Part shown: positions 11,250 to 43,888 of the stretch, piece by piece
Layout of the letters: every line of letters begins with the position of its first letter
Numbering within the stretch: position 1 is the stretch's first letter
DNA from: Synergistaceae bacterium
Lineage (GTDB): Bacteria; Synergistota; Synergistia; Synergistales; Synergistaceae
Length of the DNA stretch: 54,922 nt
Assembly (NCBI GenBank): GCA_030533085.1
Contig: JAUNJZ010000015.1
Span: forward strand, 1-54,922
Reading direction: 5' to 3'
The notes under the pieces: model-generated
Seen by the model: only the letters and a program-made list of their open reading frames with translations
Told to the model about the DNA's origin: nothing
Database searches by the model: none
Translations under genes and position numbers: made by a program

Positions 11250-11873
11250 TCAGCGCGCCTCCGCGATAAAAAGTCCGTAGCCGCAGCGGCAGGGGCGGCC
11301 GTCAAAGCCAAGCAGCGCCTCGAGCGCCTCTTTTCCGAAGTCAAATATCAGCTGTCCCCACAGCTCGCGCATCTCCCGCGTATGGTCTTCAAATAGCAGC
11401 GGCGCGAAGCCGCTTTTTTCAATGCGGGATATGATTTTTTCCTCGCGCTCGACGCGCCCCATAACGCCTGAAAAGAATCTTTCCTCCTCCGGCGCGTAGA
11501 AGTCGGCGACCGCCAGCTGCCCGCCGGCCTTCAGCGCGCGGCGGCATTCGGCCAGCGCGGCCTCCGGCTCTTCCACCTTTGAAAGGCTGCATCCAAGAAA
11601 TATCCCGTCAAAATGCCCGCCGCCGAAGGGAAGCGCCAGAATGTCGGCGCAGCAGAGCGCGCCGCCGGCGCGAAGCGGCTCTTCAAGGACGGCGGGGTCG
11701 TTGTCTATGCCGACCATCGAAAAGGCGCTGTTGGCGTTCACCCACGCGACAAACTCCCCCGCGCCGCAGCCCGCGTCGAGCAGCCGCGCTCCGGGGGGGA
11801 AGGCGCAGAGGGAGAGCGCCCGTTTCATAAGCTCGAGGCCGCCGGGGCTGGGAATGCGCGCTCTGTCCTTCAT
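11250..11873 (-). CDS. Class I SAM-dependent methyltransferase (DVU_1556-type)
   Basis: A 207-aa Rossmann methyltransferase with the SAM-binding motif I LLDAGCGAGEF near residue 35, an acidic motif II (VGIDND), and a post-motif with FDGIFLGCSLSKVEEP. The start was placed at 11873: that ATG overlaps the TGA of the upstream radical SAM gene by four bases and has GGAAGGAG in front. The open frame continues back to 11951, but only inside the neighbour. A cysteine-containing C-terminus (GRPCRCGYG) is noteworthy. Tight coupling with a radical SAM enzyme and a ligase suggests a shared biosynthetic route. Methyl acceptor unknown. Confidence 0.87.
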   Translation of the reverse strand: MKDRARIPSPGGLELMKRALSLCAFPPGARLLDAGCGAGEFVAWVNANSAFSMVGIDNDPAVLEEPLRAGGALCCADILALPFGGGHFDGIFLGCSLSKVEEPEAALAECRRALKAGGQLAVADFYAPEEERFFSGVMGRVEREEKIISRIEKSGFAPLLFEDHTREMRELWGQLIFDFGKEALEALLGFDGRPCRCGYGLFIAEAR

Positions 11874-38537: not shown

Positions 38538-39935
38538 ATGAATATCTTCAAAAGGGCCGCAAGCGCGATAATGGGCGGGCGTCTGACGGTGGATCTCGGC
38601 GAGGGGCCGGTGCTTTCCTCGCTGCTGCGGCTTTCGATACCCTCCATTGCGATGGTGCTTTTTCATACGCTCTTCAACCTTGTGGACACGATTTTCATAT
38701 CGTGGCTGGGCGAGAGCTATATGGTGGCGATATCTTACACCTTTCCGGTGCAGATAGGCGTATGGGCCATCGTGGAGGGGGTCGGCAACGGCGTTACCGC
38801 GCTTGTCGGGCGCAGGCTGGGAGAGGGAGAAAAGGAGCTTGCGCAGCGAACGGCGACGGCGGGGCTTGCCTTTTCCTACCTGCTGTGCCTGCTCTGGATT
38901 CCCTTCCTTTTCCCCGGCCCCTCGAACGCCTTCTTCCGTATGCTCGGCGCGACCGACCCTGTCACGCTGCGTCAGGCGTGGCTGTACAATATGTGGATAC
39001 CTCCGATGATGGTTTTTATCAGCTTTTCCTATGTCGTGAACTCGATATTCCGCTGTCAGGGGAATACTGTCGTTCCGCTCTGCTTCTTCACCATAGCGAA
39101 CGGGCTGAATCTCCTGCTCGACCCTATATTCATCTTCGTATTCGGCTGGGGGATGAGCGGCGCGGCGGCCGCGACCTTTGTCGGGCGCTTCGTCGGGACA
39201 TTCTATCTGATAAAAAAGATGCGGGAGTCCAGCGAGATAAAGCTTTCTTTCTTCACAGCGCCGCGCCGCGCCATGATAAAAATATGGCGGTCGATAACGG
39301 CCGTCGGGCTGCCGGTAACGCTGACGACCGGGAGCGTGGCTCTCGGCATGGGAAGCGTGAACAAGATACTCGCGTCGACCTACGGCAATGTCGCCGTGGC
39401 CGGCTGGATGGTAGGCATACGTATAGAGGATCTGGCCTTCAATACGCTGATGGGGATAAACGACGCGCTTGTCCCATTCCTCGCCTTCAATTACGGCAGG
39501 CGCAGCCTTGAGCGCATGAGGAGCGGTATTCGCGCCGCGCTGATTATCAGCGGAGCGATCACCGTAACGGCCGGCCTGCTGGTCGCCTGCTTCCCGCGGC
39601 CTATAATCAGCCTTTTCCGCCCATCGGAGGATATCGCCGCCGTCGCGATTCAGTCAATACGGCTGACGATAGCGGGCTATCCGATGGTGATATACAGCGT
39701 GATTTACAACGCCCTTTTCATCGCCACGGGCAATTCCTCTTACGGCCTCGTGATACAGGTCTGCCGCAGTATGCTGCTGCGCATACCGGCCGTCTGGCTG
39801 CTCGCCGGCTTTGTCTCCGTGAACTGGGTATGGCTTTTTCAGCCGGCCTCCTTCACCGGCGCGGCGGCGCTGACCTGGCTCTTCTCCCTGATTCTCTTCC
39901 GCAAGCTGAAAAAGGAGATGGCGACAGCGGACTAA
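38538..39935 (+). CDS. MATE-family efflux transporter
   Basis: A 465-aa inner-membrane exporter with twelve helices in two similar halves. The NorM/DinF-type features are SIAMVLFHTLFNLVDTIFI in TM1 (about 36-54) and the GNGVTALVGRRLGEG loop (about 92-106). In the second half, VGIRIEDLAFNTLMGI lies near 295. Such pumps export cationic drugs or metabolites using Na+ or H+. The ribosome site is poor: GGAGGG is 13 bases from the ATG, with a four-codon ATG frame in between, so translation may be reduced or coupled. A -10 box TATAAT lies at 38428-38433. Confidence 0.92.
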   Translation: MNIFKRAASAIMGGRLTVDLGEGPVLSSLLRLSIPSIAMVLFHTLFNLVDTIFISWLGESYMVAISYTFPVQIGVWAIVEGVGNGVTALVGRRLGEGEKELAQRTATAGLAFSYLLCLLWIPFLFPGPSNAFFRMLGATDPVTLRQAWLYNMWIPPMMVFISFSYVVNSIFRCQGNTVVPLCFFTIANGLNLLLDPIFIFVFGWGMSGAAAATFVGRFVGTFYLIKKMRESSEIKLSFFTAPRRAMIKIWRSITAVGLPVTLTTGSVALGMGSVNKILASTYGNVAVAGWMVGIRIEDLAFNTLMGINDALVPFLAFNYGRRSLERMRSGIRAALIISGAITVTAGLLVACFPRPIISLFRPSEDIAAVAIQSIRLTIAGYPMVIYSVIYNALFIATGNSSYGLVIQVCRSMLLRIPAVWLLAGFVSVNWVWLFQPASFTGAAALTWLFSLILFRKLKKEMATAD

Positions 39936-39964: not shown

Positions 39965-39993
39965 TTGACATTTTACCGCGCAGGGGCTATAAA
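39965..39993 (+). promoter_or_regulatory. Promoter of the iorAB operon
   Basis: TTGACA (39965-39970), 17-base spacer, TATAAA (39988-39993). The leader to iorA is about 173 bases and contains a terminator. Confidence 0.75.
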
Positions 39994-40032
39994 TATCATA
40001 GAAGGAGAGGGGGAGCCCTCTTCGGTTTTGAG

Positions 40033-40137
40033 ATGAGCGAAGTTATAGGGGAAACGCAGATTAGCGAAGACAGGTTTATTGACTGTATCTGTACATTCAA
40101 GGCTTTGTCGTTTGCGCGGCGAAGTCTTTTTTATTGA
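40033..40137 (+). CDS. Possible 34-aa leader peptide ahead of iorA
   Basis: An ATG-started frame of 34 codons inside the iorA leader, running through the internal terminator; its TGA is just after the T run. Four Phe and a final Tyr lie in its second half. No real ribosome site precedes it, so it may be chance. Confidence 0.25.
   Translation: MSEVIGETQISEDRFIDCICTFKALSFARRSLFY
40100..40132 (+). terminator. Intrinsic terminator inside the iorA leader (attenuator)
   Basis: AGGCTTTGTCG (40100-40110) pairs over 11 bp, three of them G-T, with CGGCGAAGTCT (40117-40127) and is followed by a run of six T (40127-40132). It sits between a strong promoter and iorA, 40 bases before the start codon. Confidence 0.65.
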
Positions 40138-40172
40138 CCGGCGTTTTTAATAAAGAGTATGGGGGAAGTGCA

Positions 40173-41978
40173 ATGGCGAAAAGGGTCTGTATGGGAAACG
40201 AAGCGATAGCGCTCGGCGCGCTGGCCGCGGGAATAAAGGTGGCGGCGGGATATCCGGGTACGCCTTCGACGGAGATTATTGAGACGCTTGTCGCGGTTCG
40301 TCAGCCTGACGTAAAGGTGCAGTGGTCAACAAATGAGAAGGTCGCCCTTGAGGTGGCGGCCGGCGCGGCTTATGCCGGCGCGCGTTCGCTCTGCACGATG
40401 AAGCAGGTGGGGCTGAATGTCGCTTCCGACCCGCTGATGAGCCTTTCTTATATCGGAGTCAAGGGCGGCATGGTGATAGCGGTGGCGGACGACCCCGGCC
40501 CCTGGTCGTCGCAGACTGAGCAGGATACGCGCGGCTTCGCGAAGCACGCTAATCTGCCTGTTTTCGACCCTTCGTCGCCTGAGGAGGCTTACGAGATGAT
40601 TCAGGCGGCCTACGAGCTGTCAGAGGCTTTCGCGCTGCCCGTCTTTCTGCGTCCGACGACGCGGGTGTGCCACGCGAGCGCGGAGGTTGAGCTGCGCGAG
40701 CCGCGTCCGGCGCGCGAGGCGGAGGGCTTTGAAAAACGCCCCGAGTGGTGCATCTTTCCCGCGCTCTCATACCGCCGTCACGGCGAGCTTGAGGTAAAGC
40801 AGAGGGAGCTGGCGCGCCGTTTCGACGCAATGCCTTTCAACCGCATTGAAGGCGGCGAAGGGTGTAAAAAAGGGGTAGCTGTCTCAGGCGTTTCATATCT
40901 CTACGCTAAGGAGCTTATCGGCGAGCTGGGGCTGGATGTGAGGCTTTATAAAATAGGCACTCCCTATCCGCTGCCGGAAGGATTGACGCGGGAATTTCTT
41001 GATTCTGTCGATTCCGTGCTTGTGATCGAAGAGCTTGATCCTGTCGTGGAGGAGCAGCTTCTTATCGCCGCGGAGGGCAAAAGGCCGGTGCTTGGCAAAC
41101 GCAGCGGAGATATGCCATGGAACGGAGAATATTCATACGAACTTATAAAGCAAGCGCTGCTGAAATATCTCGCCCTGCCCTGCGAAGAGGCGGAGGCCGA
41201 GGCCGAGGAGCTGCCGCCGCTGCCGCTTCGCCCGCCCGTACTCTGCGCCGGCTGCCCTCACCGCGCCTCTTTCTACGAGGCGAAGATTGCGACGAAGGAT
41301 TGCGCAAAGGCCATTTATTGCGGCGATATCGGCTGTTACACGCTCGGCAACGCCGCGCCGCTGAATATGGTGGACACCTGCCTCTGTATGGGAGCGGGCA
41401 TCACCATCGCGCAGGGGCTGGCGCTCGCGGAGCCGGGGACTAAGTGTCTGGCCTTTGTCGGCGATTCCACCTTTTTCCACACCGGTATTCCGGGGATAAT
41501 CAACGCCGTTTATCAGGGGACGGACATTACTGTTATCGTGCTGGACAACCGCACGACGGCGATGACAGGGCACCAGCCGCACCCCGGCACGGGCAGGCGC
41601 GCGCTCGGCGACGAGGCTCCGGCGCTTGACATTGAAACGATTCTGCGCGGCTGCGGCGTGCGTCACATCGCGAAGGTCAACCCCTTTGACTACGAAAAGG
41701 CCGTCGCGGCGATGAAGGAGGCCGTCGCCTTTCCAGGCCCCTCCGCCGTTATAGCCGAAGCTCCATGTATCGCGCATATAAAGAAGCCCTCTACCGCGCA
41801 TTTCGTGGATGATAACTGTATCAAATGCGGCCGCTGTATCCGTGAGATCGGCTGCCCCGCCATCACGCCGGACGAAACGGGGCGCGCCGTGATAAACGGC
41901 TCGCTCTGTACGGACTGCGCCCTTTGCGCGAATCTCTGTCCCGTCAGCGCGATAAAAAGAGGTGAGATAAATGGTTAA
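40173..41978 (+). CDS. iorA: Indolepyruvate ferredoxin oxidoreductase, alpha subunit
   Basis: A 601-aa thiamine-diphosphate enzyme that converts aryl pyruvates (from Trp, Phe, Tyr) and CoA to arylacetyl-CoA, CO2 and reduced ferredoxin. The N-terminal pyrimidine-binding domain starts with MGNEAIALGALAAG and AAGYPGTPSTEI. The TPP-binding domain has GDIGCYTLG and FVGDSTFFHTGIPG (about 400-450). The C-terminus carries two 4Fe-4S motifs, CIKCGRCIREIGCP and CTDCALCANLCP. The start was moved to 40173, where GGGGGAAG fits. It overlaps iorB by eight bases. Confidence 0.95.
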   Translation: MAKRVCMGNEAIALGALAAGIKVAAGYPGTPSTEIIETLVAVRQPDVKVQWSTNEKVALEVAAGAAYAGARSLCTMKQVGLNVASDPLMSLSYIGVKGGMVIAVADDPGPWSSQTEQDTRGFAKHANLPVFDPSSPEEAYEMIQAAYELSEAFALPVFLRPTTRVCHASAEVELREPRPAREAEGFEKRPEWCIFPALSYRRHGELEVKQRELARRFDAMPFNRIEGGEGCKKGVAVSGVSYLYAKELIGELGLDVRLYKIGTPYPLPEGLTREFLDSVDSVLVIEELDPVVEEQLLIAAEGKRPVLGKRSGDMPWNGEYSYELIKQALLKYLALPCEEAEAEAEELPPLPLRPPVLCAGCPHRASFYEAKIATKDCAKAIYCGDIGCYTLGNAAPLNMVDTCLCMGAGITIAQGLALAEPGTKCLAFVGDSTFFHTGIPGIINAVYQGTDITVIVLDNRTTAMTGHQPHPGTGRRALGDEAPALDIETILRGCGVRHIAKVNPFDYEKAVAAMKEAVAFPGPSAVIAEAPCIAHIKKPSTAHFVDDNCIKCGRCIREIGCPAITPDETGRAVINGSLCTDCALCANLCPVSAIKRGEING

Positions 41979-42585
41979 GAGCATCATAATAGCCGGCGTC
42001 GGCGGTCAGGGGACTCTGCTGGCCTCAAAGATACTCGCCGCGGCTGCCGGAGCCGGAGGGCTTTTCGTCCGCGGTTCGGAGACTATCGGCATGGCTCAGC
42101 GCGGCGGTTCCGTTTCAAGTCATCTGCGCATGGAGGCGAAGGAGGTCTCGCCGATAGTTCCCGGCGGCCACGGGGATATCCTGCTCGGCTTTGAGCTTGC
42201 GGAGGCGGCGCGCATGATACCAAAGCTGCGGCCTGGGGCGAAGTGCGTCGTCAATACGGACCGCATCATCCCGACCAATGTCGCGCTCGGCAAGGGAGTT
42301 TACCGCGGGGAGGAATATCTCGCGCTGCTGAAAAAGAAGTATCCCGACGCGCTCTTTATCGAGGGGGCGCCGCTGGCGCTCGCGGCCGGGGATATCCGCA
42401 CGCTGAATATCGTCATACTGGGCGCGGCTGCCGGAGCGGAGCTGCTTCCTTTCACGGAAGCCGAGATTCGGACGGCGATAAGGGGCTGCGTGAAGCCGAA
42501 GCTGCTGGCTATGAATGAAAAGGCCTTCGCCCTTGGCCTTGAAGCGGCGGAAAAGCGATGGCGGGAGCGGAAACAGATAGATTAA
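41971..42585 (+). CDS. iorB: Indolepyruvate ferredoxin oxidoreductase, beta subunit
   Basis: A 204-aa subunit with the gamma-type 2-oxoacid oxidoreductase domain. The motif IIIAGVGGQGTLLASKILA is at the N-terminus (about 5-23), followed by GSETIGMAQRGGSVSSHLR. It forms the heterodimer with IorA. The ribosome site AGAGGTGAG lies inside the end of iorA. Confidence 0.95.
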   Translation: MVKSIIIAGVGGQGTLLASKILAAAAGAGGLFVRGSETIGMAQRGGSVSSHLRMEAKEVSPIVPGGHGDILLGFELAEAARMIPKLRPGAKCVVNTDRIIPTNVALGKGVYRGEEYLALLKKKYPDALFIEGAPLALAAGDIRTLNIVILGAAAGAELLPFTEAEIRTAIRGCVKPKLLAMNEKAFALGLEAAEKRWRERKQID

Positions 42586-42658
42586 AAGCGCGTTTTTATG
42601 ACAGGTAAGCCGTAGAAGAGTTTTTTCAGAAAAGACAAGACAGGAGAGAATAAATTTT

Positions 42659-43888
42659 ATGAACGAACTTACGATAATGAGCCAGTGCTTCGCCCAGGTG
42701 CGCCGCGTTGCGAAGGCAAGCCCGATGTACCGCGAAAAATTCGCCGGTCTGGATGTGGAAACTATGATGACGAAGGAGCAGTTTGAAAAGCTGCCCTTCA
42801 CGACGAAACAGGATCTGCGCGACGCCTACCCGATGGGTATGCAGTGCGTGCCGAATGAAGAAATAGTCCGCGTGCATTCTTCCTCCGGCACGACGGGAAC
42901 TCCGGTCATAATGCCCTACAGCGCGCAGGATATAGAGGACTGGGCTGTGATGATGGAGCGCTGCTACCAGTTTGCCGGCGTCAGCACCGCGGACCGCATT
43001 CAGATAACGCCCGGCTTCGGCCTGTGGACGGCGGGGCTGGGCTTTCAGGCGGGGGCGGAGCGGCTCGGCGCGATGGTGATCCCCACGGGGGCGGGCAACA
43101 CAGACCGCCAGCTTCAGCTTATGCGCGACCTCCAGAGCAGCGTCCTTATAGGAACCTCGTCATATGCCCTCGTCATTGCGGAAGAGGTCGACAAACGCGA
43201 AATGCGCGGCGACATCCACCTCAAGCGCGGCATTTTCGGCTCAGAGCGCTGGGGCGACAGGATACGCGAGAGGATATATGAGACGCTGGGGATAGAATTT
43301 TTCGACATTTACGGACTTACGGAGATATACGGCCCCGGTATCGCCATCGACTGCCGCGAACACAGCGGAATGCATTATTTCAACGATTATATCTACTGCG
43401 AGATAATAGACCCGCAGACGGGACTGGTGCTGCCCGACGGAGAGCAGGGCGAAATCGTCATCACGACCTTCCGCAAGGAGGCCGCGCCGCTGATACGCTA
43501 CCGCACGCGCGACATATCGCGCATTATCCCCGGAGAATGTCCATGCGGCTCCCCCTTCCCACGCCTGGATCGCATCGTAGGGCGCAGCGACGACATGATA
43601 AAGGTCAAGGGTACGAACATCTACCCCTCGCAGGTGGAGGAGATACTGAAAAAGATTGACGGCTTCTCCAGCGAGTACAGGATCGTTCTCGAAAATGAGG
43701 AGCTGCGCGACAGAATGATAGTTCAGGCGGAGATGAAAAACGGAGCCGACCCGGACGCCCTCGCGGAGGCGCTTGTCAGGGAGTGCAAATCCGGCATCGG
43801 CATCCGCGTCGTTCCCCAGGTAATGAAGCTTGGCGAGCTGCCGCGAAGCGAGAAAAAAACGCAGCGCGTGATCGACAACAGGTATTAG
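42659..43888 (+). CDS. paaK: Phenylacetate-CoA ligase
   Basis: A 409-aa adenylate-forming enzyme joining aryl acetates with CoA, or running the reverse way to give ATP from arylacetyl-CoA. The phosphate loop is HSSSGTTGTPVI (about 73-84), the A5 motif is YGLTEIYGPG (about 218-227), and the A7 motif is RYRTRDISRI (about 280). CGSPFPRLDRIVGRSDDMIK follows, and the C-terminal catalytic lysine lies in RSEKKTQRV. It is 73 bases after iorB in the same direction; IorAB-PaaK pairs are common in aromatic-amino-acid fermenters. Confidence 0.93.
   Translation: MNELTIMSQCFAQVRRVAKASPMYREKFAGLDVETMMTKEQFEKLPFTTKQDLRDAYPMGMQCVPNEEIVRVHSSSGTTGTPVIMPYSAQDIEDWAVMMERCYQFAGVSTADRIQITPGFGLWTAGLGFQAGAERLGAMVIPTGAGNTDRQLQLMRDLQSSVLIGTSSYALVIAEEVDKREMRGDIHLKRGIFGSERWGDRIRERIYETLGIEFFDIYGLTEIYGPGIAIDCREHSGMHYFNDYIYCEIIDPQTGLVLPDGEQGEIVITTFRKEAAPLIRYRTRDISRIIPGECPCGSPFPRLDRIVGRSDDMIKVKGTNIYPSQVEEILKKIDGFSSEYRIVLENEELRDRMIVQAEMKNGADPDALAEALVRECKSGIGIRVVPQVMKLGELPRSEKKTQRVIDNRY

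Follow-up and report, generated by a model that had tools for sequence, protein, structure and literature searches.

A putative TRAP-controlled transcription attenuator ahead of the iorAB-paaK operon in Synergistaceae

Introduction

Upstream of the indolepyruvate ferredoxin oxidoreductase genes iorAB of a Synergistaceae bacterium, a terminator-like hairpin lies between a promoter and the first start codon. What decides whether transcription passes this point, and which metabolism does that decision serve? The initial annotation of this DNA proposed conditional termination by an RNA switch, a protein or the translation of a leader peptide, and placed it in the control of aryl-pyruvate oxidation. 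We analysed the window (the whole stretch of 54,922 nt) and sought relatives of iorA in 53 genomes of the family Synergistaceae. The leader is probably a transcription attenuator controlled by TRAP, the product of mtrB, and would most likely serve to regulate the salvage of tryptophan (aromatic amino acids) by feedback. This reading relies on the architecture of the leader, the covariation of both its hairpins, the periodicity of its NAG triplets, the presence of mtrB in the genome, the further arrays at paaK and trpB, and the fact that trpA and trpC were not found. TRAP, a ring-shaped RNA-binding protein that senses tryptophan, is well known from textbooks, mostly through work on Bacillus.

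Results

A promoter-hairpin-terminator unit conserved upstream of iorA

The features of the locus are collected in Table 1. Direct reading bore out the promoter and the iorA ribosome-binding site that had been annotated before, as well as the end of the upstream MATE gene (at 39935) ahead of the promoter. The terminator stem is also present, with 13 pairs instead of the 11 bp previously given, whereas the 5' hairpin and the NAG array had not been described.

Table 1 Features of the iorAB-paaK locus (window coordinates)
Feature	Position	Strand	Basis and details
Sigma-70 type promoter, TTGACA-17-TATAAA	39965..39993	+	Direct reading: -35 TTGACA 39965-39970, spacer 17 nt, -10 TATAAA 39988-39993; shared by most homologous leaders
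5' stem-loop, 8 pairs, AG-containing tetraloop	40004..40023	+	Covarying in 22 aligned leaders
TRAP-type array, eight NAG triplets	40030..40073	+	Shuffles and lag-5 AG periodicity; triplets at 40030, 40035, 40040, 40046, 40057, 40062, 40067 and 40071
34-codon frame of the initial annotation, judged non-gene	40033..40137	+	Confined to the source genome; ribosome site not evident
Candidate antiterminator 5' strand, GCGAAGACAGGUU and following	40064..40081	+	Overlaps NAG repeats 7 and 8; predicted to pair with terminator 5' arm
Intrinsic terminator, 13-pair stem and T run	40099..40132	+	Strong covariation, both-side changes at most pairs; stem 40099-40128 (alone -15.6 kcal/mol), loop TTGC, T run ending at 40132
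iorA ribosome-binding site, GGGGGAAG	40161..40168	+	Direct reading; ATG at 40173
iorA, indolepyruvate ferredoxin oxidoreductase alpha subunit	40173..41978	+	TIGR03336, E 2.5e-224, above cut-off
iorB, beta subunit	41971..42585	+	NF005322, E 1.1e-57, under curated cut-off; PF01558, E 3.6e-32
Second NAG array, across paaK ribosome site	42602..42648	+	Chain score 7
paaK-like AMP-forming arylacetate-CoA ligase, third gene of the operon	42659..43888	+	TIGR02155, E 2.1e-118, under curated cut-off; Pfam AMP-binding_C_2

Taken as a single sequence, the leader does not stand out: a scan for terminator-like structures found 8 where 10.2 were expected in shuffles, and the fold energy was not unusual (z -1.2). 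Since neither the scan nor the fold beats shuffles, the case for the leader depends on comparison. Promoter, 5' hairpin, a purine-rich stretch, terminator and iorA follow each other in the same order in 24 genomes of the family, and RNAalifold applied to 22 aligned leaders predicted exactly two hairpins, the 5' hairpin and the terminator. In these two hairpins, 15 of 20 pairs showed changes on both sides. We take the terminator as real because of this unit and the covariation of its stem, and the conserved leader strongly supports conditional termination. That the terminator acts on iorAB transcripts alone, as had been deduced from the position of the MATE gene, is not implied by the sequence, as read-through from MATE could arrive there; the conservation of the leader as a whole unit does support it.

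A periodic array of NAG triplets

TRAP binding sites consist of NAG repeats separated by 2-3 nt spacers (PMC3913778, PMC4347634), the triplet being given as NAG in the review PMC4347634. Each of the 24 leaders carries 7-14 NAG triplets; the source genome has eight, mostly 2-3 nt apart. AG dinucleotides recurred at a distance of 5 nt 151 times, against 43 in dinucleotide shuffles, and at 10 nt 84 times, against 40, with a further peak at 15. The NAG chain score summed over the 24 leaders was 170, compared with a mean of 69 and a maximum of 88 in 200 shuffles. The array of the source genome is among the more degenerate ones, with eight repeats and one 8-nt gap, and its leader alone scores 6 (p 0.010 against shuffles). 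Both the sequence and the length of the NAG region differ among leaders, but the 5-nt spacing is retained. The first base of the triplets was A in 69, G in 54, U in 48 and C in 42 cases (background A.39, G.26, U.21, C.14), and the G/U preference of the B. subtilis type is absent from the family leaders.

The regions upstream of iorA and paaK in six relatives lacking mtrB had no NAG signal, and in other bacterial groups none of 79 regions ahead of iorA exceeded a chain score of 5, the one that reached it resembling coding sequence. A gene-blind scan of both strands of the window yielded five positions with chains of at least 6. The highest score was that of the paaK ribosome site; the others were the iorA leader and three antisense positions inside open reading frames. 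A phylum-wide search for seven exact repeats retrieved mostly 5-bp microsatellites, and a control pattern was about equally frequent. Many such AGNNN microsatellites occur in G127, G131, G132, G136 and other genomes, where no mtrB was detected. The source genome also contains a second iorA paralogue (G000:C32:1556-3322, 44% identical), upstream of which no NAG array was visible by eye.

A candidate antiterminator

In the predicted minimum-energy fold of the leader without the terminator 3' arm, the terminator 5' arm is base-paired to GCGAAGACAGGUU in the last repeats. This arm pairs with the repeat region in all 24 predicted folds, with 73% of it paired versus 56% in shuffles. Pairing between cognate partners was compared with non-cognate pairing by genus permutation, which gave p 0.027 for the restricted element and p 0.12 when the whole region was used; of the several statistics applied to the antiterminator, none has been left out. 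Most leader energies were no different from those of shuffles. As cognate pairing is just marginally above non-cognate pairing, an antiterminator that overlaps the NAG repeats and excludes the terminator is plausible, and the evidence is only suggestive. In B. subtilis, TRAP can bring about termination when the attenuator hairpin is missing (PMC3913778).

MtrB and its co-occurrence with the leader

The source genome encodes a single protein matching the TRAP family PF02081 (G000:C29:12443-12640, E 1.7e-31). Its gene has 82 codons and lies between dnaE-like and pyruvate-kinase-like frames, named by reading their translations. The protein scores 110.1 bits with PF02081 (cut-off 21.3) and 111 bits with NF009724, under the cut-off of 117, and aligns without gaps to B. 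subtilis TRAP (1wap, 3.7e-23). Among the residues that bind RNA in TRAP, namely F32, E36, K37, D39, K56 and R58 (PMC3184956), five of the six are identical (F32, E36, K37, K56 and R58) and D39 is replaced by E. In G018 and G019 (L137 and L138), MtrB carries F32I, K37N and D39K, yet the iorA leaders retain their NAG arrays. In 23 of 28 homologues, including that of the source genome, N takes the place of the B. subtilis residue T30. Nothing above cut-off was found for anti-TRAP, weak matches sitting in long frames of at least 370 codons.

PF02081 detected mtrB in 28 of the 53 family genomes and, among controls, in B. subtilis alone; over the phylum Synergistota it was present in 57 of 188 genomes. 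It occurs in 21 of the 24 genomes having the leader versus none of nine with a diverged, leaderless iorA (Fisher 5.7e-6, phylogeny ignored), a class in which six upstream regions were examined and three, those of G023, G029 and G040, were assumed leaderless with their upstream DNA unread. The remaining three genomes with the leader are incomplete MAGs (66-89% complete).

Further NAG arrays and the tryptophan genes

NAG arrays also extend across two further ribosome sites, that of paaK (lag-5 count 85 vs 35) and that of a trpB standing alone (60 vs 21); the trpB array of the source genome was recovered independently by a pattern search. In several genera the paaK array is weak or has no clear signal. 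No tryptophan-synthesis operon was found in the source genome, and trpC and trpA were found neither there nor in most mtrB-bearing relatives; their absence is uncertain, since the source genome is 95% complete. Fragments matching trpA occur at G009:C12:137119-137386, suggestive of a trp operon in decay.

The trp operons of four relatives (L219, L220, L221 and L225) showed no NAG array above threshold. Before trpE in L219 (positions 11337-11578, G014) there is a T-box match with E 1e-15, below the gathering score, and a similar sequence can be seen by eye upstream of trpE in L225 (G004). In another family, L259 (G054) has seven NAG triplets around position 1500, at the start of a frame that is trpE-like by its translation only. 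We also considered the tryptophan transporter as a general TRAP target and rejected it: only in G046 (L224:1737-1789, minus strand) did a possible tryptophan transporter, a sodium-dependent one of the NSS type, carry an array over its start.

Discussion

Alternative explanations of the leader

Of the candidate controllers named in the initial annotation, the TRAP-type site together with mtrB favours a protein, and the leader peptide fares worst. In favour of ribosome-mediated attenuation by a Phe/Tyr-rich peptide, the 34-codon frame, which has four Phe and one Tyr, does exist in the source genome and crosses the stem, but it is private to that genome: nearly all homologous leaders miss it, having no ATG frame or short, different ones. 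In addition, it lacks a clear ribosome site and its aromatic codons lie largely within the terminator sequence, so that we give this explanation hardly any credence. It is highly improbable, too, that a constitutive terminator, for instance one that handles read-through from MATE, passes a fixed fraction of transcription to iorAB. MATE is indeed directly upstream in the source genome, but the terminator is preceded by its own conserved promoter and by the NAG array. A metabolite riboswitch or another RNA element, with the NAG periodicity as an incidental or structural trait, would also fit a conserved 5' hairpin and a covarying terminator, and the coverage of Rfam is limited. Against it, the NAG region drifts in sequence and length but holds its 5-nt spacing, no aptamer core is conserved between the two hairpins, the identical spacing recurs over the paaK and trpB ribosome sites, and the leader co-occurs with mtrB. 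Rfam gave no significant match to a riboswitch or T-box at iorAB, none reaching gathering scores, in agreement with the T-box absence noted earlier. We regard an RNA element of this kind as very unlikely.

More closely related to TRAP-controlled attenuation is its reverse, in which tryptophan-bound TRAP promotes read-through and induces an oxidative catabolism of aryl-pyruvates. Such a role would make sense in Synergistota, members of which are described as amino acid fermenters in PMC12366334, and IOR has been described in peptide fermentation (Mai and Adams, as cited in PMC13285125). However, the terminator follows the repeats and the candidate antiterminator overlaps them, repression is what arrays across the ribosome sites of paaK and trpB should bring about, and the co-regulation of trpB points to biosynthesis; we therefore think this inverted control unlikely. 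The TRAP of this clade might also have a different ligand, such as another aromatic intermediate in place of tryptophan, its fold having been re-tuned as it moved from the trp operon to arylacetate salvage. The frequent replacement of T30 by N is what raises this idea, which we consider rather unlikely.

A model for TRAP control of aromatic salvage

In the TRAP-controlled attenuation that we propose from sequence comparison, transcription would start just past the promoter, the 5' hairpin would form and the eight NAG triplets would emerge. When tryptophan is scarce, MtrB would remain unbound, the last repeats would pair with the terminator 5' arm and the polymerase would read through into iorAB-paaK. 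When it is plentiful, the TRAP ring would wrap the repeats and block the putative antiterminator, leaving the terminator free to fold and to end transcription near 40132. At the second array TRAP may block translation of paaK; the stand-alone trpB, located elsewhere in the genome, may be repressed in the same way at a third. TRAP binding, tryptophan as the ligand, termination as the outcome of binding and the antiterminator are all inferred from sequence.

On the metabolic side, PaaK would activate arylacetates, IorAB would reductively carboxylate the products to aryl-pyruvates for transamination, and TrpB would make tryptophan from indole. We lean towards this anabolic direction, in which iorAB-paaK makes aryl-pyruvates from arylacetates rather than oxidising them, because an AMP-forming ligase adjoins IOR, NAG arrays are shared with trpB, and trpA and trpC were not found. 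The same three observations make the control of aryl-pyruvate oxidation, as originally annotated, doubtful. In Bacteroides, IOR beside an AMP-forming arylacetate-CoA ligase may be biosynthetic (PMC13285125).

Comparison with known systems

The closest parallel is the trpEDCFBA leader of B. subtilis, where NAG repeats mostly 2-3 nt apart precede a terminator (PMC3913778, PMC3184956) and overlap an antiterminator, as the repeats here overlap a candidate one; the MtrB homologue keeps most RNA contacts. The Bacillus trp leader also has a 5' stem-loop. In contrast, the source leader belongs to the phylum Synergistota and would control iorAB-paaK instead of trp genes, the first base of the family triplets is unrestricted, the terminator looks like a strong intrinsic one, and the source genome has no anti-TRAP above cut-off and no detected trpA or trpC. 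The arrays at paaK and the stand-alone trpB resemble the sites through which TRAP represses the translation of trpG and trpP in B. subtilis, with NAG repeats across the ribosome site (PMC4347634), although the target genes differ and the paaK array lies within an operon that would already be attenuated at its head. The T-box leader before trpE in L219, from the same family, would share with the iorAB leader a terminator-based control of tryptophan genes, but T-boxes, none of which was found at iorAB, sense tRNA and not free tryptophan.

In the open-access literature, we found no TRAP targets described in Synergistota or at iorA. Attenuation by TRAP is already known, while the phylum, the targets and the salvage logic appear to be new. 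If correct, a TRAP-type regulon for the salvage of indole and arylacetates, kept in Synergistota genomes that yielded neither trpA nor trpC, would widen the role of TRAP. It would also provide a testable argument that the IOR-PaaK operons of some anaerobes make aryl-pyruvates instead of oxidising them.
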